A stretch of DNA of 45,014 bases, taken from a virus. Made by a program: the position numbers and the translations under genes. This document shows, one piece after another, positions 3,914 to 36,301 of this stretch (positions are counted from its first letter, which is position 1; the number at the start of each line of letters is the position of its first letter). Location: the IMG/VR virus record IMGVR_UViG_3300010399_000014, positions 1 to 45,014 of that record. The stretch is one strand, 5' to 3'. The notes under the pieces were generated by a model. It searched no databases. It was not told the origin of the DNA and saw nothing but the letters and a program-made list of their open reading frames with translations.

Positions 3914-4579
3914 CTACGCAGCAGGCTGCGCGAAGGGATTGGCCGCGGCCGCACCTTGAGCGAAGGGATTGGCCGCACTCGCCGGCGTGTTAGCCGGGGC
4001 CGGGGCTGCTGCGGGCGATTGGCTGGCGGGCGCGGGTGCTGCCGCCTTGGGGTCGGCGAACTTGGCGAAAGCGCTGGCCGAATCATTGCCGATCGACAGA
4101 CGCTCGCCGCCTTGACCTGCGTCCATGATGCCGGCCAAGTTGAACGATACGCCGCGGCCGCCTTGCGGGTGGGTCCACGGGAAAGCCGTCAGATTGGCGC
4201 GCACGCGCTTGCCCGCGTAGAACGTGGACTTGATGGCGGCTTGTCCATCGGGCGCGTCTTGGCGCAGTTGTTCGCCTTTGGCGCTGTACACCTCGGGGGC
4301 GAAGCGCGTCACGGCTCGGATGATGAACCAATCGACCGGAATGCCGGGCAACGGTTTTTTGCGGGCGCTATTGCGCTCGACGCCGACTTGGACATCGGGG
4401 TGCAGGCCGCCGAACAGACTTTGCGCAGCAGCCTGCGCAATAGCTTGCAGGTCGTTGCCGGCTTCGGGCGCCATGGCCAGAAGCGCGAAGAACTCCAGCG
4501 GATTGCCGGCCTTGAGCTTGTTGGCCTGGGGCGTCGCAAGCGCAAAATGGGTGAGAATGGCGATGTGATCGGAAATCAT
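3914..4579 (-). CDS. DUF2815 single-stranded DNA-binding protein
   Basis: 221 residues from the ATG at 4579 (AAAGGT ribosome site); a longer in-frame extension is not supported. The protein matches the DUF2815 family of phage ssDNA-binding proteins, here directly downstream of a DUF2800 nuclease, its usual partner. The body includes KKPLPGIPVDWFIIRAVTRF and an RVRANLTAFPWTHPQGGRGVSFNLAGI segment. The last 45 or so residues are an Ala/Pro-rich linker with two NPFAQ repeats encoded by a duplicated DNA stretch. Instead of the acidic tip typical of many SSB proteins the tail ends in PAA. It should coat ssDNA during phage replication. Confidence 0.8.
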   Translation of the reverse strand: MISDHIAILTHFALATPQANKLKAGNPLEFFALLAMAPEAGNDLQAIAQAAAQSLFGGLHPDVQVGVERNSARKKPLPGIPVDWFIIRAVTRFAPEVYSAKGEQLRQDAPDGQAAIKSTFYAGKRVRANLTAFPWTHPQGGRGVSFNLAGIMDAGQGGERLSIGNDSASAFAKFADPKAAAPAPASQSPAAAPAPANTPASAANPFAQGAAAANPFAQPAA

Positions 4580-4628
4580 AGTAGTACCTTTAAAAGTGAC
4601 TGAAAAAGTGCGCAACGCACCCTGAATA

Positions 4629-5825
4629 CTACTCGCCCTTAACCTGGGCGTCAACGATATTTGAATATTTTTTGAATAACTTGGCGATCTGCGACGGCGT
4701 GCCGGGATCGACTAATTTGATGGACCGCGTGGGCGACCCGCGCGCGATGAGTTCGTCACGCGCGAAAGCGGGCAGCTTGTCGAACACCGTGCTGAGCGCT
4801 TTCGGCTCGAGTAGATCGGTGCGGCCCATGGCCAGCAACGTTAGCGTGACCTGCGCGTCGTCTTTCCACTTGCGCCGGCCGTCGGATGTCGTCACCTGCA
4901 AGCGCGCGTGGCCGGCCTGAGCCAGCAACTCGATGCGTTCTTCGACGTCTTCCCAGAAACCCTTGAAAGCGCTACGGGCCGCCCACAACTGCACGACTTC
5001 ATCGTCTGTCATGCTGTGCAAACTACGCTCTCCGGTGTAAACGGCGAGCGCTGCAGCCGCAGCATTGTGCGTGCGCGGGCATATCGGCTTGGCGCGGCAA
5101 TACCTGCACCAATCGCCGGCGTTGGGGTTCTGGCCCGTCGCGGCGTCCACTGCGGCCACCTCACGCCTGAGTTTGTTGCGCTCGGCCGGCAACCAGTCCG
5201 ACGTGAACATCTCGGATTGGCCGGCCAATCCGATCACGCGCCGCGGCTGGAAAATGGCAACGCAAAGCTCGGCAGGTTCCAGCCCGAACGTCTCGGCCCC
5301 CGCAACCACATAGGCCGCCAACTGCTCGTTTGTGTTTTCGGCGTCGCCTACCGCGACGTCCTCGAAACCGTACTTGTAGTCGACCACGACTAGGCGCCGC
5401 AACTCCGGCAGCCACACCAGGCAATCGGCCGTGCCGAATAACTGCGGGTGAATCGACGGGATAGCTACGCGCTGCTCGATCGTGACGTGCGCCGCAGCCC
5501 CTGCCGGGATTAGCCCGCGAATGAACTCGACGTAAGCGCGCCCGTGCCGACGCATGTCCTCATTCCACGCCTCGGGCGTACGTCCTTTGAGATTGAGGCC
5601 TTCGGTGACGGGAATGTCCAGCGGATCACCAGGAAGCGCGCCGGGCAGCCCGAACGCTTGCCGCACATAAAACTCGGCCACCGAATGCGCGGCCGTCCCT
5701 TCGGCCGCGTAAGGCGAGGTCTTGTCGGCGAAGCCGGCAGAAAGCAAGACGCTATCGGGGCAGTTCTTCCAGCGCTTGCGCGCCGAGAACGACAATTTGG
5801 AATGCACGACGGCGGGATTTGACAT
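4629..5825 (-). CDS. DUF2800 family nuclease (PD-(D/E)XK, Fe-S cluster type)
   Basis: 398 residues from the ATG at 5825. A longer frame from 5858 is unlikely because that ATG lies inside the predicted -10 box. DUF2800 proteins are Cas4/AddB-like exonucleases. Visible here: LSFSARKRWKNCPDS at the N-terminus with the first cluster Cys, AAEGTAAHSVAEFY, the core motif VVVDYKYGFEDVAVGDAEN (catalytic Asp and Lys), and the cysteine group CRYCRAKPICP, which completes a four-Cys Fe-S site. It is first in the leftward arm from copy A and probably works with DUF2815 and RusA in replication-linked recombination. Confidence 0.85.
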   Translation of the reverse strand: MSNPAVVHSKLSFSARKRWKNCPDSVLLSAGFADKTSPYAAEGTAAHSVAEFYVRQAFGLPGALPGDPLDIPVTEGLNLKGRTPEAWNEDMRRHGRAYVEFIRGLIPAGAAAHVTIEQRVAIPSIHPQLFGTADCLVWLPELRRLVVVDYKYGFEDVAVGDAENTNEQLAAYVVAGAETFGLEPAELCVAIFQPRRVIGLAGQSEMFTSDWLPAERNKLRREVAAVDAATGQNPNAGDWCRYCRAKPICPRTHNAAAAALAVYTGERSLHSMTDDEVVQLWAARSAFKGFWEDVEERIELLAQAGHARLQVTTSDGRRKWKDDAQVTLTLLAMGRTDLLEPKALSTVFDKLPAFARDELIARGSPTRSIKLVDPGTPSQIAKLFKKYSNIVDAQVKGE

Positions 5826-5853
5826 GGCGGACTCACGTGGCGAATGAACCGCA

Positions 5854-5882
5854 ATCATAACAGCCTATCACGCAAAAGTAAA
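5854..5882 (-). promoter_or_regulatory. Predicted sigma70-type promoter for the DUF2800-DUF2815-rusA arm
   Basis: On the minus strand TTTACT and TATGAT are separated by exactly 17 nt. The -10 box covers the ATG at 5858, and transcription would start near 5847, giving a 22-nt leader before the ATG at 5825. The same TTTAC(A/T)-17-TATGAT arrangement occurs at 38772-38800. It lies just outside the left edge of repeat copy A. Confidence 0.55.
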
Positions 5883-6051
5883 TAAACGGCGACGCGGGAC
5901 GGTACGGACGACAACCCGGAAAGTACGGAGGATCCTCCGTAAAGTCCTCCGTAAAGCGTGTCCGAACGTCAATTCCATGACTAAACGTAATGGTGCGTTG
6001 CAGCGTAAAAATGTTGCTAATTGTAAGAATCGACCATTTTACGGACGACAT

Positions 6052-6089
6052 TCCGTTGATGTTCCGTTAATCTTCCGTACTTCCTCCGT
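6052..6089 (+). repeat. Helically phased TCCGT array
   Basis: TCCGT occurs at 6052, 6063, 6074 and 6085, an exact 11-bp period, each preceded by T or C and followed by T or A. One-turn spacing places the sites on one face of the helix, as in operator or iteron arrays bound by an oligomerising protein. All four copies are intact in repeat copy B (30779-30816). Confidence 0.7.
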
Positions 6090-6130
6090 ATTGTCCCTTA
6101 TTTATATTCCTTCCTCCTACTCTACTCTAA

Positions 6131-6194
6131 CCTATTGATATTATTATATTTATTATAGATAGATAGATAGTAATAGAGATAAGATAAGAGTGAG
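6131..6194. other. AT-rich block between motif clusters (possible unwinding element)
   Basis: This 64-bp stretch contains only a few G or C bases and includes a run of GATA tetranucleotides near 6157-6170. It is flanked by the phased TCCGT array on one side and by two ACGGA sites (6196, 6205) on the other. The arrangement resembles a DNA-unwinding element of an iteron origin. The same block, with one change, is in copy B. Confidence 0.45.
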
Positions 6195-6239
6195 TACGGA
6201 GGATACGGAAGAGAATATAGGTAAAAAACTATCCAGGAC

Positions 6240-6279
6240 GCAAAAGTGAATTTAGTAGGGGTACTAAATCCATTTTCGC
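6240..6279 (+). promoter_or_regulatory. Conserved 40-nt hairpin in the repeat element
   Basis: An inner perfect stem ATTTAGTA / TACTAAAT closes a GGGG loop (6250-6269) and is extended outward by a further, imperfect 10-bp stem. In copy B one base differs, turning a G-C pair into a G-U pair on the plus-strand RNA, so the fold is kept as RNA. This suggests a structured leader for rightward transcripts, or a DNA cruciform at an origin. It lacks a T-run and is not a typical terminator. Confidence 0.45.
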
Positions 6280-6402
6280 ATTACCGAGAAAGTGTGGCGA
6301 CAAGTCTCCTCCGTTAAATGGTTTGTAAACTGTGCAATGGCTATCAGTTGGTCAGCATTCATAGTTTCCTTCTATTTTACTTTTAGCTAACATCCGGGCA
6401 AT

Positions 6403-8940
6403 ATGATCAGAAACCGCTGCGAACCACTCGCCGCGACTCACGGGGCAGGCATGCAAACGGACATTCGATTTACCCAGATCACAGCAACGAATTGTGAGCT
6501 GACCAAGACCTACACGCTGGTTACAAACGGTGTGCACAGCAGCGCCATCGCCCACATGACCGAAGGCCACGCCCGCATTCTGTCGCTACCCTCGATCAGC
6601 AATCTGGGCGCGGTCCTGGATCTGCTGCAGTCGAATCAGGCGATTACCTGCGGCGTCCCGGCCAAGGGCGACACCGCCCTGACCACGCGTGCTGGCGCAG
6701 ATTTCCGTCCCGATGCGGTAGCGCGCACGAACGAGGCGTTTGTTTTCCCCTACGGCCCGGCGCTGTTCCCGATCGATGTCGATGTTGACGGCGACACGTT
6801 TCGCAGCGTGGACGACGTGCTGGACGCGCTGGAGGCCTGCTCGCCCTGGATGCGCAACATCTCGCGGGTTGCGCGGCCCTCGTCCTCGTCCTATGTAACC
6901 GGGCGTGGGCTGCGCGGTGTGCACGTTTACTTGCCCGTCAATCGCGGCGTAGATGTGCCACTTCTGGCCAAACGCATGCAGATCGAGCAATGGGCGGCCG
7001 GCCGCGGTTTTGTGCGCATCAGCAAATCGGGGGCGCTTTTGGTGCGCCAGCTATCAGACGCTATGGTTTACCAGCCCTCGCGGCTCATGTTTGAGGCGCC
7101 CCCGGTGCTGCACGACCTCGCGCGCGAGATCCCGCCCGAGGCGCGGTTCATCGAGCGGGCCCCGCAAGTCGTCGGCCAACCGGCCAAATATCGCACTCCT
7201 GACGGAATGCTGGACGTGCAACTGATGCCTGCCGTGCGCGAGTTGGACGAACGCCGCTTCGTGACCGCAGTGCGCGCCGCCAAGAATGCGCGTCGGCGCG
7301 AGGCCAAGACGGTTGCGATCGACTGGCAGAAGCAGAATGCCATTGCGGCCGGGCTGGATCCGGCCGAAGGCGAGCGCTTGGGCCTACTCGCCACGCGCGC
7401 GCTAGGCGACAAGGCGTTGCCGCGTAGCTGGTTGCTACGTATTGCCGGGCTGCCCGATCCGGTGTCGGTGGCCGATGTGCTGGCCAACCTGGACGCAGCA
7501 CTCGGGCGCCACTGCGCCGACCCGTTCGACACGTTTCGCTTTGATCTGGCGGACAAGCACATGCACAAGGCTGAGATCGTGCGCATGGGCGACACGCCGG
7601 GCATCTGGTCGCATAAGCTGCAGGAATTCTTTGCGTTCACGGCGGCCGACGCCGCAGACTTGGCCAGCCCGCTGGATTTGGCGGCAGAGAAATTGTGCGG
7701 CCTGGTCGAGTATCCCGAACCGGCCGGCCGCAAGGCTGCGCCGTTTGTCAACGTCATGCACGGTCTGGAGCTGCTGCTGCGCGAAATCGACGCGCTGCCG
7801 CAATTTAACGTGTGCACGTCATCCGTCGAGGCTGAAGACGTGCCGCCGACCGGGCGTCTAGTCGAGGCGCTGTCTCGGATTGGTTGCGCTAACGTGACGC
7901 CCGGCACTGTCGAGCGCGCCGTGTCGGCGCTGGCCGAGATGCGCCGTGTCGACCCCTGGAAAGACAAGATTCTGAATTTACCCCCCTGGGACGGCCAGAA
8001 ACGACTTGAGGGCGTGTTTTACGACGTGTTTGATGCCGAGGTAGCACCTCACGTTCCCAACGTCTCCTGCGCCCTTTTTGCAGGTATCGTCATGCGGCAG
8101 TTGCGCCCGGGCGTTCCGGCCCCCGTCATTCCCGTGTTAATCGGCGCGCAGAACTTAGGCAAAAGTCGCTTCGTGACCGAAGTGGCCCGCGCGCTGGGCT
8201 TTCCCCTGCCGGCTTCGATTGCGTTCGGCGATGATCGGCGCATGTCCATGGCCGCGTCGCGTTCAGTTATCTGCGAGCTGGCCGAGATGTCCGGCCTGTC
8301 TAAACGCGACGCCGACGATGTCAAGCGATGGGTCACGGATGACGTGGACGTGTACCGGCGTCCTTATGAAAAACAGGAAGAAGCGCACCCACGCCGGTTT
8401 GTCGCTTGCGGTTCGGCCAACAAGTACGAGATCAACCGCGATGAGACAGGCAACCGGCGCTTTGGCCCGATCTTCATTCGCGCCGCGATGGCGCCGCATT
8501 GGATGGTGGAACTGCCCCAGATATTCGCAGAGGCCAAGCAGCGTTTTTGCGAGAACGAGTCCGACTATTACGCGTTGATCCGTCGCGCCGCCGAGTCAGT
8601 CTATGAGTACAGCCAGGTGGCGATGAGCCGCGGCGAGGGCATCCCCGTGTCCGACCTGGACGAGCTGTTGCCGCCAATCCTCACTAAAGCCCTGAACCGC
8701 GATGGGCGCGGCCGCGTACAGGCCGCAGCCATCCGTCAAGCGCTCGACCAGATCGTGTCGGGACGGCGCTTTTCAGCCCAGGACGTCGCGCGCTGGCTGA
8801 CTGCTCGCGGCTGGACTGCGGGCAAGGACGGACTCGGTATGCGGCATTACGTCGCCCCGTCAAATTTCGTTGACATAAACGAGAAAGTCACTATACTAGA
8901 ACAACACAATCCATTTACAACGGGAGCAAAAGTAGCATGA
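6403..8940 (+). CDS. VapE-type primase-helicase replication protein
   Basis: 845 residues. The N-terminal half resembles an archaeo-eukaryotic PrimPol domain, with the acidic IDVDVDG motif near residue 123 and a GRGLRGVHVYLPV segment. The C-terminal half is a virulence-associated E (VapE) helicase domain: Walker A GAQNLGKS near residue 581, Walker B ICELAEMSG about 40 residues on, and the arginine motif ETGNRRFGP. It probably primes and unwinds phage DNA. It is first in the rightward arm from copy A. The ATG at 6403 has no good ribosome site and overlaps a TATGAT hexamer; the in-frame ATG at 6451 (ACGGGGCAGGC before it) may be the true start, giving 829 residues. Confidence 0.9.
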   Translation: MIRNRCEPLAATHGAGMQTDIRFTQITATNCELTKTYTLVTNGVHSSAIAHMTEGHARILSLPSISNLGAVLDLLQSNQAITCGVPAKGDTALTTRAGADFRPDAVARTNEAFVFPYGPALFPIDVDVDGDTFRSVDDVLDALEACSPWMRNISRVARPSSSSYVTGRGLRGVHVYLPVNRGVDVPLLAKRMQIEQWAAGRGFVRISKSGALLVRQLSDAMVYQPSRLMFEAPPVLHDLAREIPPEARFIERAPQVVGQPAKYRTPDGMLDVQLMPAVRELDERRFVTAVRAAKNARRREAKTVAIDWQKQNAIAAGLDPAEGERLGLLATRALGDKALPRSWLLRIAGLPDPVSVADVLANLDAALGRHCADPFDTFRFDLADKHMHKAEIVRMGDTPGIWSHKLQEFFAFTAADAADLASPLDLAAEKLCGLVEYPEPAGRKAAPFVNVMHGLELLLREIDALPQFNVCTSSVEAEDVPPTGRLVEALSRIGCANVTPGTVERAVSALAEMRRVDPWKDKILNLPPWDGQKRLEGVFYDVFDAEVAPHVPNVSCALFAGIVMRQLRPGVPAPVIPVLIGAQNLGKSRFVTEVARALGFPLPASIAFGDDRRMSMAASRSVICELAEMSGLSKRDADDVKRWVTDDVDVYRRPYEKQEEAHPRRFVACGSANKYEINRDETGNRRFGPIFIRAAMAPHWMVELPQIFAEAKQRFCENESDYYALIRRAAESVYEYSQVAMSRGEGIPVSDLDELLPPILTKALNRDGRGRVQAAAIRQALDQIVSGRRFSAQDVARWLTARGWTAGKDGLGMRHYVAPSNFVDINEKVTILEQHNPFTTGAKVA

Positions 8941-9507
8941 AAAACGTCAAATATGAATTCGTTGAAGGCGACGAAAAGGTCATCGCCCCTGGCGTAGTCG
9001 TCAAGCGTATACGCGCTACGGTCGCTATTGCCGCGACACTATGGACGCCTGCAGGTGTCCGGCAACGCGTGGGTGTACGGCGACGCGCGGGTGTCCGGCA
9101 ACGCGCAGGTGTACGGCAACGCGCGGGTGTCCGGCAACGCGTGGGTGTACGGCGACGCGCAGGTGTCCGGCAACGCGTGGGTGTACGGCGACGCGCAGGT
9201 GTCCGGCAACGCGCGGGTGTACGGCAACGCGCGGGTGTACGGCAACGCGCGGGTGTCCGGCGATGGTCTCATTTTCTGGGCCAGCAAGGTCGGCAGCGAA
9301 AACGGGACGCTGACCGTCTACAACGCCGAGGGCGACATGCTCGAGGTCACGCGTGGATGCTTCCGCGGGACGGTCGAGCAGTTCCTCGCAGCAAGTGCGA
9401 AAAAACACGATAGTCGCACCCAGCATGAGTACAGATTGTTGATCGAGGTCGCGCGCTCGCGCATCGAAGCCGCACGCGAGACCACCGAATTGCCGGAACA
9501 GCCATGA
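8937..9507 (+). CDS. Hexapeptide-repeat (left-handed beta-helix) protein, apparently frameshifted
   Basis: Two reading frames together make one recognisable protein. The start at 8937 (ATGA overlap with VapE) encodes KYEFVEGDEKVIAPG and KRIRATVAI, the N-terminus of a phage family that continues with hexapeptide repeats. After about 9025 the matching sequence is in the +1 frame: twelve V-(S/Y)-G-(N/D)-A-x repeats and then a globular end (SENGTLTVYNAEGD, RGCFRGTVEQFLA, EYRLLIEVARSRIEAARE) to the stop at 9507. The usual linker with a GDLGGWIE-like block is missing. A deletion with frameshift, or an assembly error, is likely; no slippery site is visible. The stop is coupled (ATGA) to the next gene. 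Confidence 0.6.
9055..9270 (+). repeat. Twelve 18-bp tandem repeat units
   Basis: Units of the form GTG-(TCC/TAC)-GGC-(AAC/GAC)-GCG-(TGG/CGG/CAG) are repeated without interruption. Each unit encodes one hexapeptide of a predicted left-handed beta-helix. Units differ mainly at the codons for Ser/Tyr, Asn/Asp and the last position. Unit number could change by slippage without altering the frame. No stop codon occurs in other frames through this block, so long unrelated frames there are artefacts. Confidence 0.9.
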
Positions 9508-28626: not shown

Positions 28627-30078
28627 TTATCGAATCCTTGACAAAATCTCTTTCGTAATCATACCGGCAATCGGCGAGCGCAGGCACAATTGCTGCAGTG
28701 CAATCGTCATGCAATCGACGGTATCGTCGTTTTTGACGTCAGGGAAAGACGTGATTTCGGCCACCCATTGCGCGATGCTCGGGTCTTCGCTCGGGTCGGG
28801 CAAAAACACGCTATTGTTCGCCCACACCCAGGAGACAGCGTGGGCCCGCGCTTCCTTGCTGCCTAAGGGCGGCACGCCTTCGACGCCGACAAAGTGTTTC
28901 TGCAGCATCTCAATGAGCGCGGCACCATTGGCCGCTTCTTCTATGTAAATCCGGTGCGTGTCGGGGTGTTTACCGCGCAGGTCAGCAATGGCCTGCGCGG
29001 TCGCCACGAACCCTAGGCGCTCCCGGCGTTTGTCGATCAGCCAGACATTGTCGATCGCATCCAGGCCCCAAACGCCGACGGCAACAAAGTCGCTCGTTTT
29101 TGCGTCCTTGAACGTCGCGTCGACCGTGATGATCTTGCGCTTGAAACTGCGCGGCAAGTCGGCGCGCTTGTAATGACGTACGTGCGCGCGCGGGAAAATC
29201 GCGCCCACATCCGCTAGCGGCGTCTGCTGGAACATCGCAGCCCACCACATGGCCGAAATATTGCGCTTGATCTCGCGCAGCTTCGTCTCGTCGTGCAGAT
29301 GCGGTACGAGCGCGCCTGGCGGCAGCCCAGGGTCATAGCCTAGCTCATCAGGTAGGTTCAGCGCAGGAAACGACAGCAGCGTGAAATTGGTTTGCGACTC
29401 AAACACCCGGCGCACGTGCGCGAGTAGATCCTGCGCCGACCAGGGTGTCCCGATGATGACCACGCCCGAGCGTTGTTGCAGGCGCGTTTGCAGCACCGAG
29501 TCGAACCAATCGCGGTTGCGCTCCTGAATGGTCTCGGAAAGCGCCTCTTCAGCGTTTTTTACCGCGTCGTCGACGATGCCTACTTCGAGCGGGAAGCCAG
29601 TCAGGCCGCCACCAATGCCCACGCCGCGCAACCATCCGCCGCCGGGCACTTCCAGGCCGTCTGAGACGTTGTCGATCCCTTTGAACCCGATCAAGGAAGC
29701 GTACGGGAAAATCTCGCGGTAGATCGGCTCGGCCATGATGGCCTGGGCGTCGCGCCGGTTGCGATTGGCCAAGCCCTGCGCGTAGGAGGCGCAGGCGATG
29801 CGCACGCCGGGCAGCTCGCGTAGCAGTCGCCCCATAAGATAGGGAGGCAAGCAGCGCGAAATAAGGGACGATTTGCCGTGCTGCGGGGGCGCAGTCAACA
29901 TCAGGACAGGACGCTTGCCGGCGATCAAGTCTTCGACAAACCGGTCAATCGCACGGCACACGGCCGCCGAGAAAGCCGAGTGTTTATAGCGCGGCCGATG
30001 CACGGCGGACACGAACGCGGCAAAACTCGTGCGCGCCGCCTCAACGAGAAATTCGACGGGGTCGACGACTTGCGTCAT
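28627..30078 (-). CDS. terL: Terminase large subunit
   Basis: 483 residues. ATPase motifs: Walker A APPQHGKSS (63-71), adenine-side KHSAFSAAVCRAIDRF before it, Walker B VGIVDD (166-171). Nuclease domain: TVDATFKDAKTSD (Asp at 320), RIYIEEAANG (about 377-386) and VKNDDTVDCMTIAL with Asp near 455. It packages phage DNA into proheads and cuts it. The circular map with no defined end inside a late gene suggests headful packaging, but the sequence alone does not prove it. Four-base overlap with the small subunit gene. Confidence 0.93.
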   Translation of the reverse strand: MTQVVDPVEFLVEAARTSFAAFVSAVHRPRYKHSAFSAAVCRAIDRFVEDLIAGKRPVLMLTAPPQHGKSSLISRCLPPYLMGRLLRELPGVRIACASYAQGLANRNRRDAQAIMAEPIYREIFPYASLIGFKGIDNVSDGLEVPGGGWLRGVGIGGGLTGFPLEVGIVDDAVKNAEEALSETIQERNRDWFDSVLQTRLQQRSGVVIIGTPWSAQDLLAHVRRVFESQTNFTLLSFPALNLPDELGYDPGLPPGALVPHLHDETKLREIKRNISAMWWAAMFQQTPLADVGAIFPRAHVRHYKRADLPRSFKRKIITVDATFKDAKTSDFVAVGVWGLDAIDNVWLIDKRRERLGFVATAQAIADLRGKHPDTHRIYIEEAANGAALIEMLQKHFVGVEGVPPLGSKEARAHAVSWVWANNSVFLPDPSEDPSIAQWVAEITSFPDVKNDDTVDCMTIALQQLCLRSPIAGMITKEILSRIR

Positions 30079-30563
30079 TTTGCGCTGTCCAGCAGCCCGA
30101 GCGCGGCAAGCTCCTTGAGCTGTTCGACATACTGCTCGCGCTGCTCTTGCGATATTGTCTGGGCAAGCGGCGCCGCGTTGGCGATCTCGACCACGGCTTT
30201 GTCAAAGCCCAGCAGCTTGACCAGCATGGCAAAGGACTTGTCCTTGCTGCGAAACCGCGGCACGTACTGGCCATGCTTGAAGTCGAACCCCTCGATGAGT
30301 CGGCCGACTCGCGGCGTGCGCAGCTTCGCTTGGTCGAGTTCGTAATGCTCGACGGCGCCTACGCCGCCACACGTGGCGCAGGTCATGAGCGTGCCGTCGT
30401 CGGTCACGGTTCCGTCGCGCCGCGCTTCGCCGCCCACCGTGCCGGCGCCCGCGCATGCCGGGCACGTCACGGTCTTGATGTGCAGAAGCGCCCCTAGGTT
30501 TTCGTTGATGAGCGAAACCAGATCGGCAACAAGCGACGTATGGACGGGGGCAAGAGGTTCCAT
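30075..30563 (-). CDS. Putative terminase small subunit
   Basis: 162 residues from ATG 30563; the longer in-frame extension from 30641 runs into the repeat element and is unlikely. The gene is first in the leftward arm from copy B and overlaps terL by 4 bp, the standard place for the DNA-recognition subunit. It contains two CPAC / CATC-type cysteine pairs (TVTCPACAGAG and MTCATCGGVG, residues 33-72), a zinc-ribbon not found in classic small terminases, and a helical C-terminal half (QEQREQYVEQLKELAAL). Identity is inferred from position. Confidence 0.65.
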   Translation of the reverse strand: MEPLAPVHTSLVADLVSLINENLGALLHIKTVTCPACAGAGTVGGEARRDGTVTDDGTLMTCATCGGVGAVEHYELDQAKLRTPRVGRLIEGFDFKHGQYVPRFRSKDKSFAMLVKLLGFDKAVVEIANAAPLAQTISQEQREQYVEQLKELAALGLLDSAK

Positions 30564-30626
30564 GCGGCAAAGTGTAACGCAAAGGTTAACCCGCGCGCCA
30601 TCTAAGCACCCGAATGCACCAAGTTT

Positions 30627-31057
30627 CGGTACAGACGACAACCCGGAAAGTACGGAGGATCCTCCGTAAAGTCCTCCGTAAAGCGTGTCCGAACGTCAAT
30701 TCCATGACTAAACGTAATGGTGCGTTGCAGCGTAAAAGTGTTGCTAATTGTCAGAAACGGCCATTTTACGTACGACATTCCGTTGATGTTCCGTTAATCT
30801 TCCGTACTTCCTCCGTATTGTCCCTTATTTGTATACCTTCCTCCTACTTTACTCTAACCTATTGATATTATTATATTTATTATAGATAGATAGCTAGTAA
30901 TAGAGATAAGATAAGAGTGAATACGGAGGATACGGAAGAGAATATAGGTAAAAAACTATCCAGGACGCAAAAGTGAATTTAGTAGGGGTATTAAATCCAT
31001 TTTCGCATTACCGAGAAAGTGTGGCGACAAGTCTCCTCCGTTAAATGGTTTGTAAAC
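30627..31057. repeat. 431-bp divergent intergenic element, copy B
   Basis: Second copy of the element at 5900-6330 in the same orientation, offset by 24,727 bp, with no net indel. Substitutions cluster in two places (30738-30771 and 30831-30849) and leave ten of the twelve ACGGA/TCCGT cores, the palindrome and the phased array intact. It lies between the small terminase gene (start 64 bp to the left) and the first baseplate gene (start 62 bp to the right), so it mirrors the placement of copy A. Short frames inside it are not supported as genes. Confidence 0.95.
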
Positions 31058-31083
31058 CGCATATCGTTGCGTGTGGCGCGGCT

Positions 31084-31112
31084 TGATCGGCGTGCTGCTG
31101 CAGTGCTACGAT
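31084..31112 (+). promoter_or_regulatory. Candidate late rightward promoter beside copy B
   Basis: TTGATC and TACGAT are 17 nt apart and the -10 box ends 6 nt before the ATG at 31119. If used, the message would be nearly leaderless; no ribosome site is seen before that ATG. It lies just outside the right edge of repeat copy B, as the copy A promoter lies just outside its left edge. Confidence 0.4.
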
Positions 31113-31118
31113 TGACCC

Positions 31119-31496
31119 ATGGACACGTTGTCGCTCACCCCCGCCTGGGATTTGGATGTCGACGCCTACGGCAACTGGGCGACGATCGGCGACGCCACGC
31201 CGGGCGACATGACCGGGCCGGGCATGCGGCTTGCACAGGACGTGGCCACGCGCTGCCTGTCCTGGCGCGGCGAGGTCTACTACGACGCCACGCAAGGCAT
31301 CCGCTACGAGCAGATCCTAGGCCAAGCCCCAAACTTGGCGCTCATCCAGAGCACGTTCGCCACCGAAGCGCTAAAAGTGCCGGGCTGCGCGCAGGCCATT
31401 CCGAATTTCACGTTCACCGGCGGCCGTGCGCGCACGCTGTCCGGCCCGCTCACTGTGGCGGATTTCGCGGGCAATGGCGGTCAGGTGCTGTTTTGA
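31119..31496 (+). CDS. Baseplate wedge-region protein (gp25/W-like small protein)
   Basis: 125 residues. The pattern WDLDVDAYGNWATI, MRLAQDVATRCLSWRGEVYYD and a TQGIRYEQILGQ segment is shared with small baseplate proteins found at the start of tail operons in this phage type, related in layout to gp25/W-like wedge proteins. It is first in the rightward arm from copy B. Its stop overlaps the TTG start of the next gene. Confidence 0.7.
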   Translation: MDTLSLTPAWDLDVDAYGNWATIGDATPGDMTGPGMRLAQDVATRCLSWRGEVYYDATQGIRYEQILGQAPNLALIQSTFATEALKVPGCAQAIPNFTFTGGRARTLSGPLTVADFAGNGGQVLF

Positions 31497-35644: not shown

Positions 35645-35671
35645 ATGGACTTATTCAACCAGGAGCGGAAC

Positions 35672-36301
35672 ATGGAACAGAAAGAATTCAAGGTTGGCCA
35701 AGTGTGGAAACGCCGGGGCGGCGGCACCGAAACTATCCACGCCGTTCTCACTGACGGGGCCTATCCGATTATAGGTCGTGTGACTTCTTACACGCGTGAG
35801 GGTAAGTGTTACTCGTGGGGAGACAGCTCAATGGATCTCGTCGAACTCGTACAGGATGCACCCGAAAAGCCCGCGCCGGCGAAAGAATTCAAGGTCGGTC
35901 AAGTGTGGAAACGTCGGGATGGCGGCACCGAAACTATCCGCGCCATTCGTACTGACGGTGTCTATCCAGTTACGGGCAGCTCAGGGTGGCTATACACCCG
36001 AACTGGCGATTATCTGTTGCGTGGCGACTCTGACTCTGATCTCGTCGAACTCGTACAAGACGTAATCACGCCCCCGCCAGCAGCGCCAAACTTTTCACCG
36101 TACGAAACGCTTTCCGCCACGGCGCGCGCTGCCATCAAGTCGGCCATCGTCGAGCTGCAAGGCCAAGCCGCGCATGCCGCCGACGAGCGTGACGCCGCGC
36201 TGACGCGCTTCGAGGAAGCGGCGGCGCGCCAGCGCGAGAAAGCGCTGGCCGCAATCGAGCTAGGCACGCTGCTCGTGCGCATGCCTGAGTCGACGGACTG
36301 A
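35672..36301 (+). CDS. Accessory protein with a duplicated KEFKVGQVWK domain
   Basis: 209 residues from ATG 35672 (AGGAGCGGAAC); the earlier in-frame ATG at 35645 lies in the leader. Two copies of a domain of about 55 residues, each starting KEFKVGQVWKRR and ending DLVELVQD, stand in tandem (about residues 4-62 and 70-130). A helical C-terminal region follows. Similar domains occur singly in unrelated phages, usually in accessory genes. Function unknown. Own promoter and a position between tape measure and hub suggest a late-acquired gene. Confidence 0.7.
   Translation: MEQKEFKVGQVWKRRGGGTETIHAVLTDGAYPIIGRVTSYTREGKCYSWGDSSMDLVELVQDAPEKPAPAKEFKVGQVWKRRDGGTETIRAIRTDGVYPVTGSSGWLYTRTGDYLLRGDSDSDLVELVQDVITPPPAAPNFSPYETLSATARAAIKSAIVELQGQAAHAADERDAALTRFEEAAARQREKALAAIELGTLLVRMPESTD

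Follow-up and report, generated by a model that had tools for sequence, protein, structure and literature searches.

The window, by which we mean the whole 45,014-nucleotide stretch of viral DNA analyzed here (IMG/VR record IMGVR_UViG_3300010399_000014), comes from a contractile-tailed phage of a Bcep781/Kantovirinae-like clade, and a 123-bp terminal overlap indicates that the record is circular, with a length of 44,891 bp. Its genes diverge from two hubs (Table 1). At one of them, an exonuclease gene on the minus strand points away from a primase-helicase gene on the plus strand; at the other, the genes for a putative terminase small subunit (TerS) and a baseplate wedge subunit are arranged in the same manner. 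The name TerS was given because the gene sits just upstream of TerL, phrog_16968 itself being a family of unknown function. A weakly Gp2.5-like protein is encoded by the second gene of the exonuclease arm, beside the first hub. For the primase, the conserved N terminus suggests that the true start lies near 6450 rather than at the ATG at 6403. Directly 3' of the primase gene, an open reading frame (8937-9413) carries 18-nt tandem repeats (8997-9317) that amount to a 6-residue protein repeat, and an open reading frame of the tail arm (35645-36301) contains a 92-bp repeat (35680-35972; 86% identical, 201 bp spacing).

Table 1. Genes, repeat copies, and candidate sites at the two divergent junctions of the window
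Feature	Position	Strand	Remarks
ssDNA-binding/annealing protein, weakly Gp2.5-like	3914..4654	-	phrog_16841 4.8e-54; phrog_112 5e-6
PD-(D/E)XK exonuclease, first gene of recombination arm	4629..5858	-	start likely near 5825
Candidate exonuclease promoter TTTACT-17-TATGAT, extended -10	5854..5882	-	outside repeat; consensus match only
Copy 1 of duplicated element	5900..6330		exonuclease/primase junction; 97.2% identical to copy 2 (12/431 differ)
Left iteron cluster, copy 1	5925..5952		ACGGAGGA at 5925; reverse complement TCCTCCGT at 5933 and 5945
Iteron, copy 1	6082..6089	-	TCCTCCGT on + strand
Candidate unwinding element (AT-rich core), copy 1	6136..6191
Iteron ACGGAGGA, copy 1	6196..6203	+
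Iteron, copy 1	6307..6314	-	TCCTCCGT on + strand
Box TTTTACTTTT upstream of primase	6375..6384	+	outside repeat; also before primase in G001 and G004
Primase-helicase with VapE-like domain	6403..8940	+	PHROG 16593; PF05272 1.7e-39
Putative terminase small subunit, first gene of head arm	30075..30641	-	phrog_16968; start likely near 30563
TACACT, late-promoter-like -10 upstream of TerS	30571..30576	-	outside repeat
Copy 2 of duplicated element	30627..31057		TerS/baseplate wedge junction; direct orientation relative to copy 1
Left iteron cluster, copy 2	30652..30679		units at 30652, 30660, and 30672
Iteron, copy 2	30809..30816	-
Candidate unwinding element (AT-rich core), copy 2	30863..30918
Iteron, copy 2	30923..30930	+
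Iteron, copy 2	31034..31041	-
Candidate baseplate-arm promoter TTGATC-18-TACGAT	31083..31112	+	outside repeat; consensus match only
Baseplate wedge subunit, first gene of tail arm	31119..31496	+	phrog_120

A duplicated element with iterons and an AT-rich core

Between each pair of diverging genes lies a copy of the same element. The original prediction had described a 431-bp duplication in one orientation with 12 substitutions, placed at divergent junctions with gene starts 62 to 75 bp away, and each of these particulars held up. A gapless alignment of the two copies returned exactly 12 substitutions, both copies lie between a minus-strand and a plus-strand gene, and the distances from the repeat to the likely start codons are about 62 bp for the baseplate gene, 64 for TerS, 72 for the primase, and 75 for the exonuclease. 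Identity between the copies ends abruptly at both edges of this alignment. The shared part has a GC content of 39%, against 61% genome-wide, and the copies are the only long dispersed repeat that a scan of the window revealed besides the terminal overlap. When one copy was compared with the record by BLAST, it matched in two places only (E 1e-227 and 2e-211). Among 50,697 phage records BLASTN returned no match to the element, a scan of IMG/VR for exact 21-mers was equally negative, and a search of the window against Rfam found no RNA family.

Counted on both strands, the 8-mer ACGGAGGA has 12 occurrences in the window's two junctions (six per copy) and none in the rest of the genome. These iterons lie to either side of the AT-rich core, some in one orientation and some in the other. 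In addition, relaxed TCCGT units recur in copy 1 at 6052, 6063, and 6074, 11 bp apart.

Recurrence, turnover, and rearrangement among relatives

Since elements of different genera cannot be aligned, relatives were sought by protein. The sample comprised 24 complete or nearly complete genomes, drawn from isolates, IMG/VR contigs, and one metagenome-bin contig. Among the named relatives are the Burkholderia phages Bcep781, Bcep1, Bcep43, and BcepNY3 (Naesvirus) and the Xanthomonas phages KPhi1, phiXaf18, XapPhi, and PhiXhv. A duplicated AT-rich element occupies the same two divergent junctions in all 24 genomes, that is, in the window and its 23 relatives; the Bcep781-type phages, which the original prediction had named as the ones to check, do carry it. 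The shared part measures 127 to 519 bp across the genomes, the block in G006 being only 50 bp, and the two copies within a genome are 94 to 100% identical in most cases, with lower values in G001 (82%), G038 (85.5%), and G006 (86% over its 50 bp).

This recurrence bears on whether the duplication is real and on whether it could be mobile. Assembly duplication is ruled out by the presence of the element at the same two places in genomes from independent sources and by the 12 sites at which the window copies differ. Moreover, the Bcep genomes, which are of the Sanger era, carry the duplication, so that it is no short-read assembly artifact. An origin as a MITE-like insertion, or as an assembly duplication after all, is scarcely credible. 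Terminal inverted repeats do occur in some copies (G009, G030, and G037), but the element always lies at the same two junctions, without variation in copy number or position; in PhiXhv5, one of the two holds 1.5 units.

Individual genomes have further peculiarities. The exonuclease/primase junction of G003 (1124 bp) contains about 540 bp inserted within one element copy, between shared blocks, and the baseplate wedge/primase junction of PhiXhv5 (L069) holds its partly repeated element as blocks of 143 and 224 bp. In G001, a small gene for an HTH-like regulator is inserted between exonuclease and element, within the first 400 bp of the exonuclease/primase junction. A small conserved open reading frame is found between element and primase in KPhi1 (L029, 40253-40574, about 107 aa) and also in Xaf18, PhiXhv5, G030, G032, G037, and XapPhi1; the idea that it is a copy of the primase C terminus was rejected, as hhalign showed no homology. 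Away from the junctions, TerL of G006 (L043, 11942-14446) and of G015 (L058, 10808-13312) has an intein-like interruption of about 1 kb (one 905-aa frame).

Clear iterons are found in the window and in about eight relatives, including the Bcep phages, G003 to G006, and G009. For example, TGACAGAT occurs 14 times in the junction pair of Bcep1 (seven per copy), TACGGAGG 10 times in those of G003 and G005, ACAGACGA 8 times in that of G009, and GGTGGGAT 10 times in that of G006, with no occurrence elsewhere in these genomes; in G004 there are 10 inside the pair and 0 to 1 outside. The 8-mer scan found iterons weak or not evident in G022, G027/G028, G038, and the XapPhi phages, and a universal consensus, ACRG[AC]NGA, was discarded because it fails in most of the genomes. 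The core ACGGAGG is common to the window and its sister genomes G001 and G003 to G005, which indicates that the iteron word drifts with phylogeny. In G006 the copies have in common only the 50-bp block plus iterons; they are otherwise hardly alike and yet full of GGTGGGAT, so that the iterons appear to have been kept where the remainder drifted. According to nearest-neighbor energies, the two least stable 100-bp segments of the genome are the two junctions in 24 of 24 genomes. Low duplex stability would, however, be anticipated for any long intergenic stretch of a GC-rich genome, such stretches being commonly AT-rich.

The two junctions occupy homologous positions throughout the 24 genomes. 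At a cutoff of E 1e-10, the elements match only the partner in their own genome or the elements of close relatives and do not align between genera, the exception being short matches of 59 to 137 bp among Xanthomonas-type phages. Judged from these alignments, a pair of copies that are alike within a genome and unalignable between genera is a case of concerted evolution, and the pattern supports the earlier idea that exchange by gene conversion keeps the copies alike. In the closely related trio G003 to G005, six sites have genome-specific substitutions in both copies, and no site separates the two positions across the three genomes. Such substitutions were also sought in the Bcep phages and none was seen, meaning that conversion is invisible at that depth. 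The pattern suggests that conversion happens only now and then over short times, yet prevails over long ones.

Two arm orders, A and B, exist among the 24 genomes (REARRANGEMENT). Order A, in which TerS is paired with baseplate and exonuclease with primase, is that of the window and nine others; order B, in which TerS is paired with exonuclease and baseplate with primase, is found in 14 genomes, including the Bcep and Xanthomonas phages. The two are related by an inversion of everything that lies between the elements, and the order has switched at least twice, based on trees of six proteins and on a primase tree to which partial contigs were added. The orientation of the element has changed as well. 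Its copies are direct in 17 genomes, the window and the Bcep phages among them, and inverted in 7 (KPhi1, Xaf18, G009, G022, G030, G033, and G037), with at least five switches on the tree. Some elements are nearly palindromic (z 19.7 in G009, 9.5 in G004, and 8.0 in G030), which could let the copies pair in either orientation and thereby explain the flips. In the window, the same end of the element faces the exonuclease, an early gene, at one copy and TerS, a late gene, at the other. The claim that early and late arms begin at separate copies stands for the window, but it does not extend to the family, where Bcep and Xanthomonas phages have an early and a late arm at both copies. From these changes of orientation and neighbors, it follows that neither orientation nor the early or late identity of the neighbor is essential to function.

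The literature that we searched, which excludes the original Bcep781 genome paper (reportedly Summer et al. 2006), makes no mention of the duplicated element or of arm exchange. It does describe four gene clusters on alternating strands in Bcep781-type genomes (PMC2771037), and a published table for PQ43W (PP405626) places the exonuclease on the minus strand next to the primase on the plus strand, the same arrangement as in the window (PMC11324598).

Probable twin origins and rival functions

The element is probably, though by no means surely, a replication origin that is present in two copies per genome and homogenized by recombination. The original prediction had offered an origin, a master operator, or both. 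An origin is the better fit, whereas a shared operator or promoter fares worse, with the candidate core promoters of the window lying outside the element and its orientation flipping between genomes. Twin origins that recombination keeps alike and at which arms are exchanged best account for the anatomy of the element, its orientation independence, the turnover of its iterons, and the class of initiator encoded next to it; orientation independence over so many flips suits an origin in particular.

On the evidence of sequence and a structural model, the primase-helicase is the candidate initiator. It matches PriRep1 (PDB 7pds) both by profile (4e-38) and by fold (4.5e-15). Its AlphaFold2 model (mean pLDDT 75.5) has a C-terminal end of the form helix-strand-helix-helix-strand-strand, a pattern typical of a winged helix, and in the Rep initiators of SaPIs it is the C-terminal domain that binds the origin iterons (PMC7581432). 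Against the origin reading, however, the primase's predicted recognition helix seems fairly well conserved while the iterons differ between genera.

If the copies are origins, the VapE/PriRep1-like primase-helicase would bind the iterons, open the AT-rich core, and start bidirectional replication. Forks would then travel outward, co-directional with transcription of all four arms, and each arm would be transcribed from a promoter of its own in the unique sequence adjoining the element. The exonuclease and the annealing-like protein may use one copy as the template for mending the other, and the two arm orders would arise from crossing over between inverted copies. As evidence for an origin, GC skew neither helps nor hurts, the outward skew of every arm being close to zero. 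DnaA-box-like sites are missing from the junctions of 22 of the 24 genomes, so any origin would be DnaA independent. The other two, KPhi1 (L029) and Xaf18 (L030), have three such sites each, all of them in junctions and one of them perfect (TTATCCACA).

A rival proposal is that the copies form a shared transcription hub, a bidirectional operator or enhancer on whose iterons a phage regulator would coordinate the four arms. We regard this as rather unlikely. The element always lies between divergent gene starts, its iterons could be operators, and sigma-70-like promoters are found near its edges; in XapPhi1 and PhiXhv5, the consensus scan even gave good sigma-70-like matches inside the repeat. 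In the window, however, none of the candidate promoters close to gene starts fell within the repeat, all of them being in the unique flanks, and a motif similar to the TACACT box precedes TerS in several relatives, including G004, G009, and KPhi1. Across the 24 genomes, the best consensus match fell beyond the shared part, toward the gene, at 60 of 96 sides and within the shared part at 33. Matches in the flanks argue against the element as a promoter, but not against a modulating role. Furthermore, a timing switch should not tolerate changes of orientation and early or late context, and an operator needs no AT-rich core that is the least stable part of the genome. A shared operator thus explains the position of the element but not its changes of orientation and context, and is less likely than origins.

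The two roles might also be combined, as in the autoregulated iteron plasmids, with the initiator on the iterons both firing replication and repressing or activating the flanking promoters. The iterons extend close to the edges of the element and to the candidate promoters, and the candidate initiator gene lies downstream of copy 1, but the second copy is distant from that gene, and we consider the combination distinctly improbable. Even less probable, in our estimation very much so, is a recombination, resolution, or packaging site (e.g., pac or dimer-resolution-like) that serves mainly genome processing. Such a site would be in keeping with arm exchange on at least two occasions, the frequent orientation flips at the element, the signature of gene conversion, and the long inverted repeats within some copies (G009, G004, and G030). 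Nevertheless, pac sites are usually single and located in or near terS, no recombinase gene was recognized beside the element, and homology alone explains the exchange.

It is tentative, and to our minds doubtful, that the pair is both an origin and a live isomerization hub. Were this the case, recombination between inverted origins would flip half the genome, and one population would hold both arm orders. With direct copies, recombination would give two replicating subcircles; in the window, one would run from the primase to the head genes and the other from the tail to the exonuclease genes.

Should the twin-origin reading prove correct, a whole clade of virulent phages would have two near-identical origins, matched by recombination and turned over in sequence between genera. 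This would amount to a natural experiment in the coevolution of initiator and iterons and in concerted evolution in a tailed phage, and would explain how whole arms can be swapped in a four-arm genome without breakage. The cultured members Bcep781, KPhi1, and XapPhi make the reading directly testable.

Comparison with known replication systems

Several known systems resemble the paired element in part. Satellite phage P4 has two separate iteron sites, ori and crr, that serve a fused primase-helicase initiator, and the window element can be likened to them; these sites are not known to be a near-identical duplicated block, however, or to head divergent arms. In Bacillus phage SPP1, oriL and oriR are two similarly organized origins, made of direct repeats and an AT-rich unwinding element and bound by one initiator, and collision at the second origin has been proposed to trigger the switch to concatemers via recombination proteins (PMC6316719). 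The likeness is one of architecture only, namely, two sites with repeats and an AT-rich unwinding element in one lytic genome. SPP1 relies on gp38/gp39/gp40, with a DnaB-type helicase and loader, whereas here the initiator candidate is of the VapE type. Likewise, oriL lies inside the initiator gene, whereas the copies described here are intergenic, mostly near-identical, and located at divergent hubs. The duplicated mitochondrial control regions of rhacophorid frogs (Rhacophoridae) also consist of two copies evolving in concert (PMC9494961), but with an unrelated replicon and machinery, so that the parallel is an analogy only.

In the origins of PICIs, including SaPIs, an AT-rich region is bordered by two sets of iterons (PMC6092414). 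The element resembles them in that iterons flank an AT-rich core (clearly so in the window, the Bcep phages, G003 to G006, and G009), in that the iteron sequence varies between relatives, and in that the adjacent primase-helicase is a homolog of PriRep1, a Pri-Rep self-loading helicase. The differences concern number, position, and lifestyle. A PICI has a single origin directly 3' of rep, whereas here one copy precedes the primase on its 5' side and another is found at the other hub; PICIs are satellites, whereas this is a virulent tailed phage whose copies, 20 to 25 kb apart, evolve in concert. According to the authors who described the PICI origin, none of the other known elements of the type under consideration had this architecture (PMC6092414). 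If the twin-origin reading is right, a PICI-type origin architecture would be found in free-living phages.
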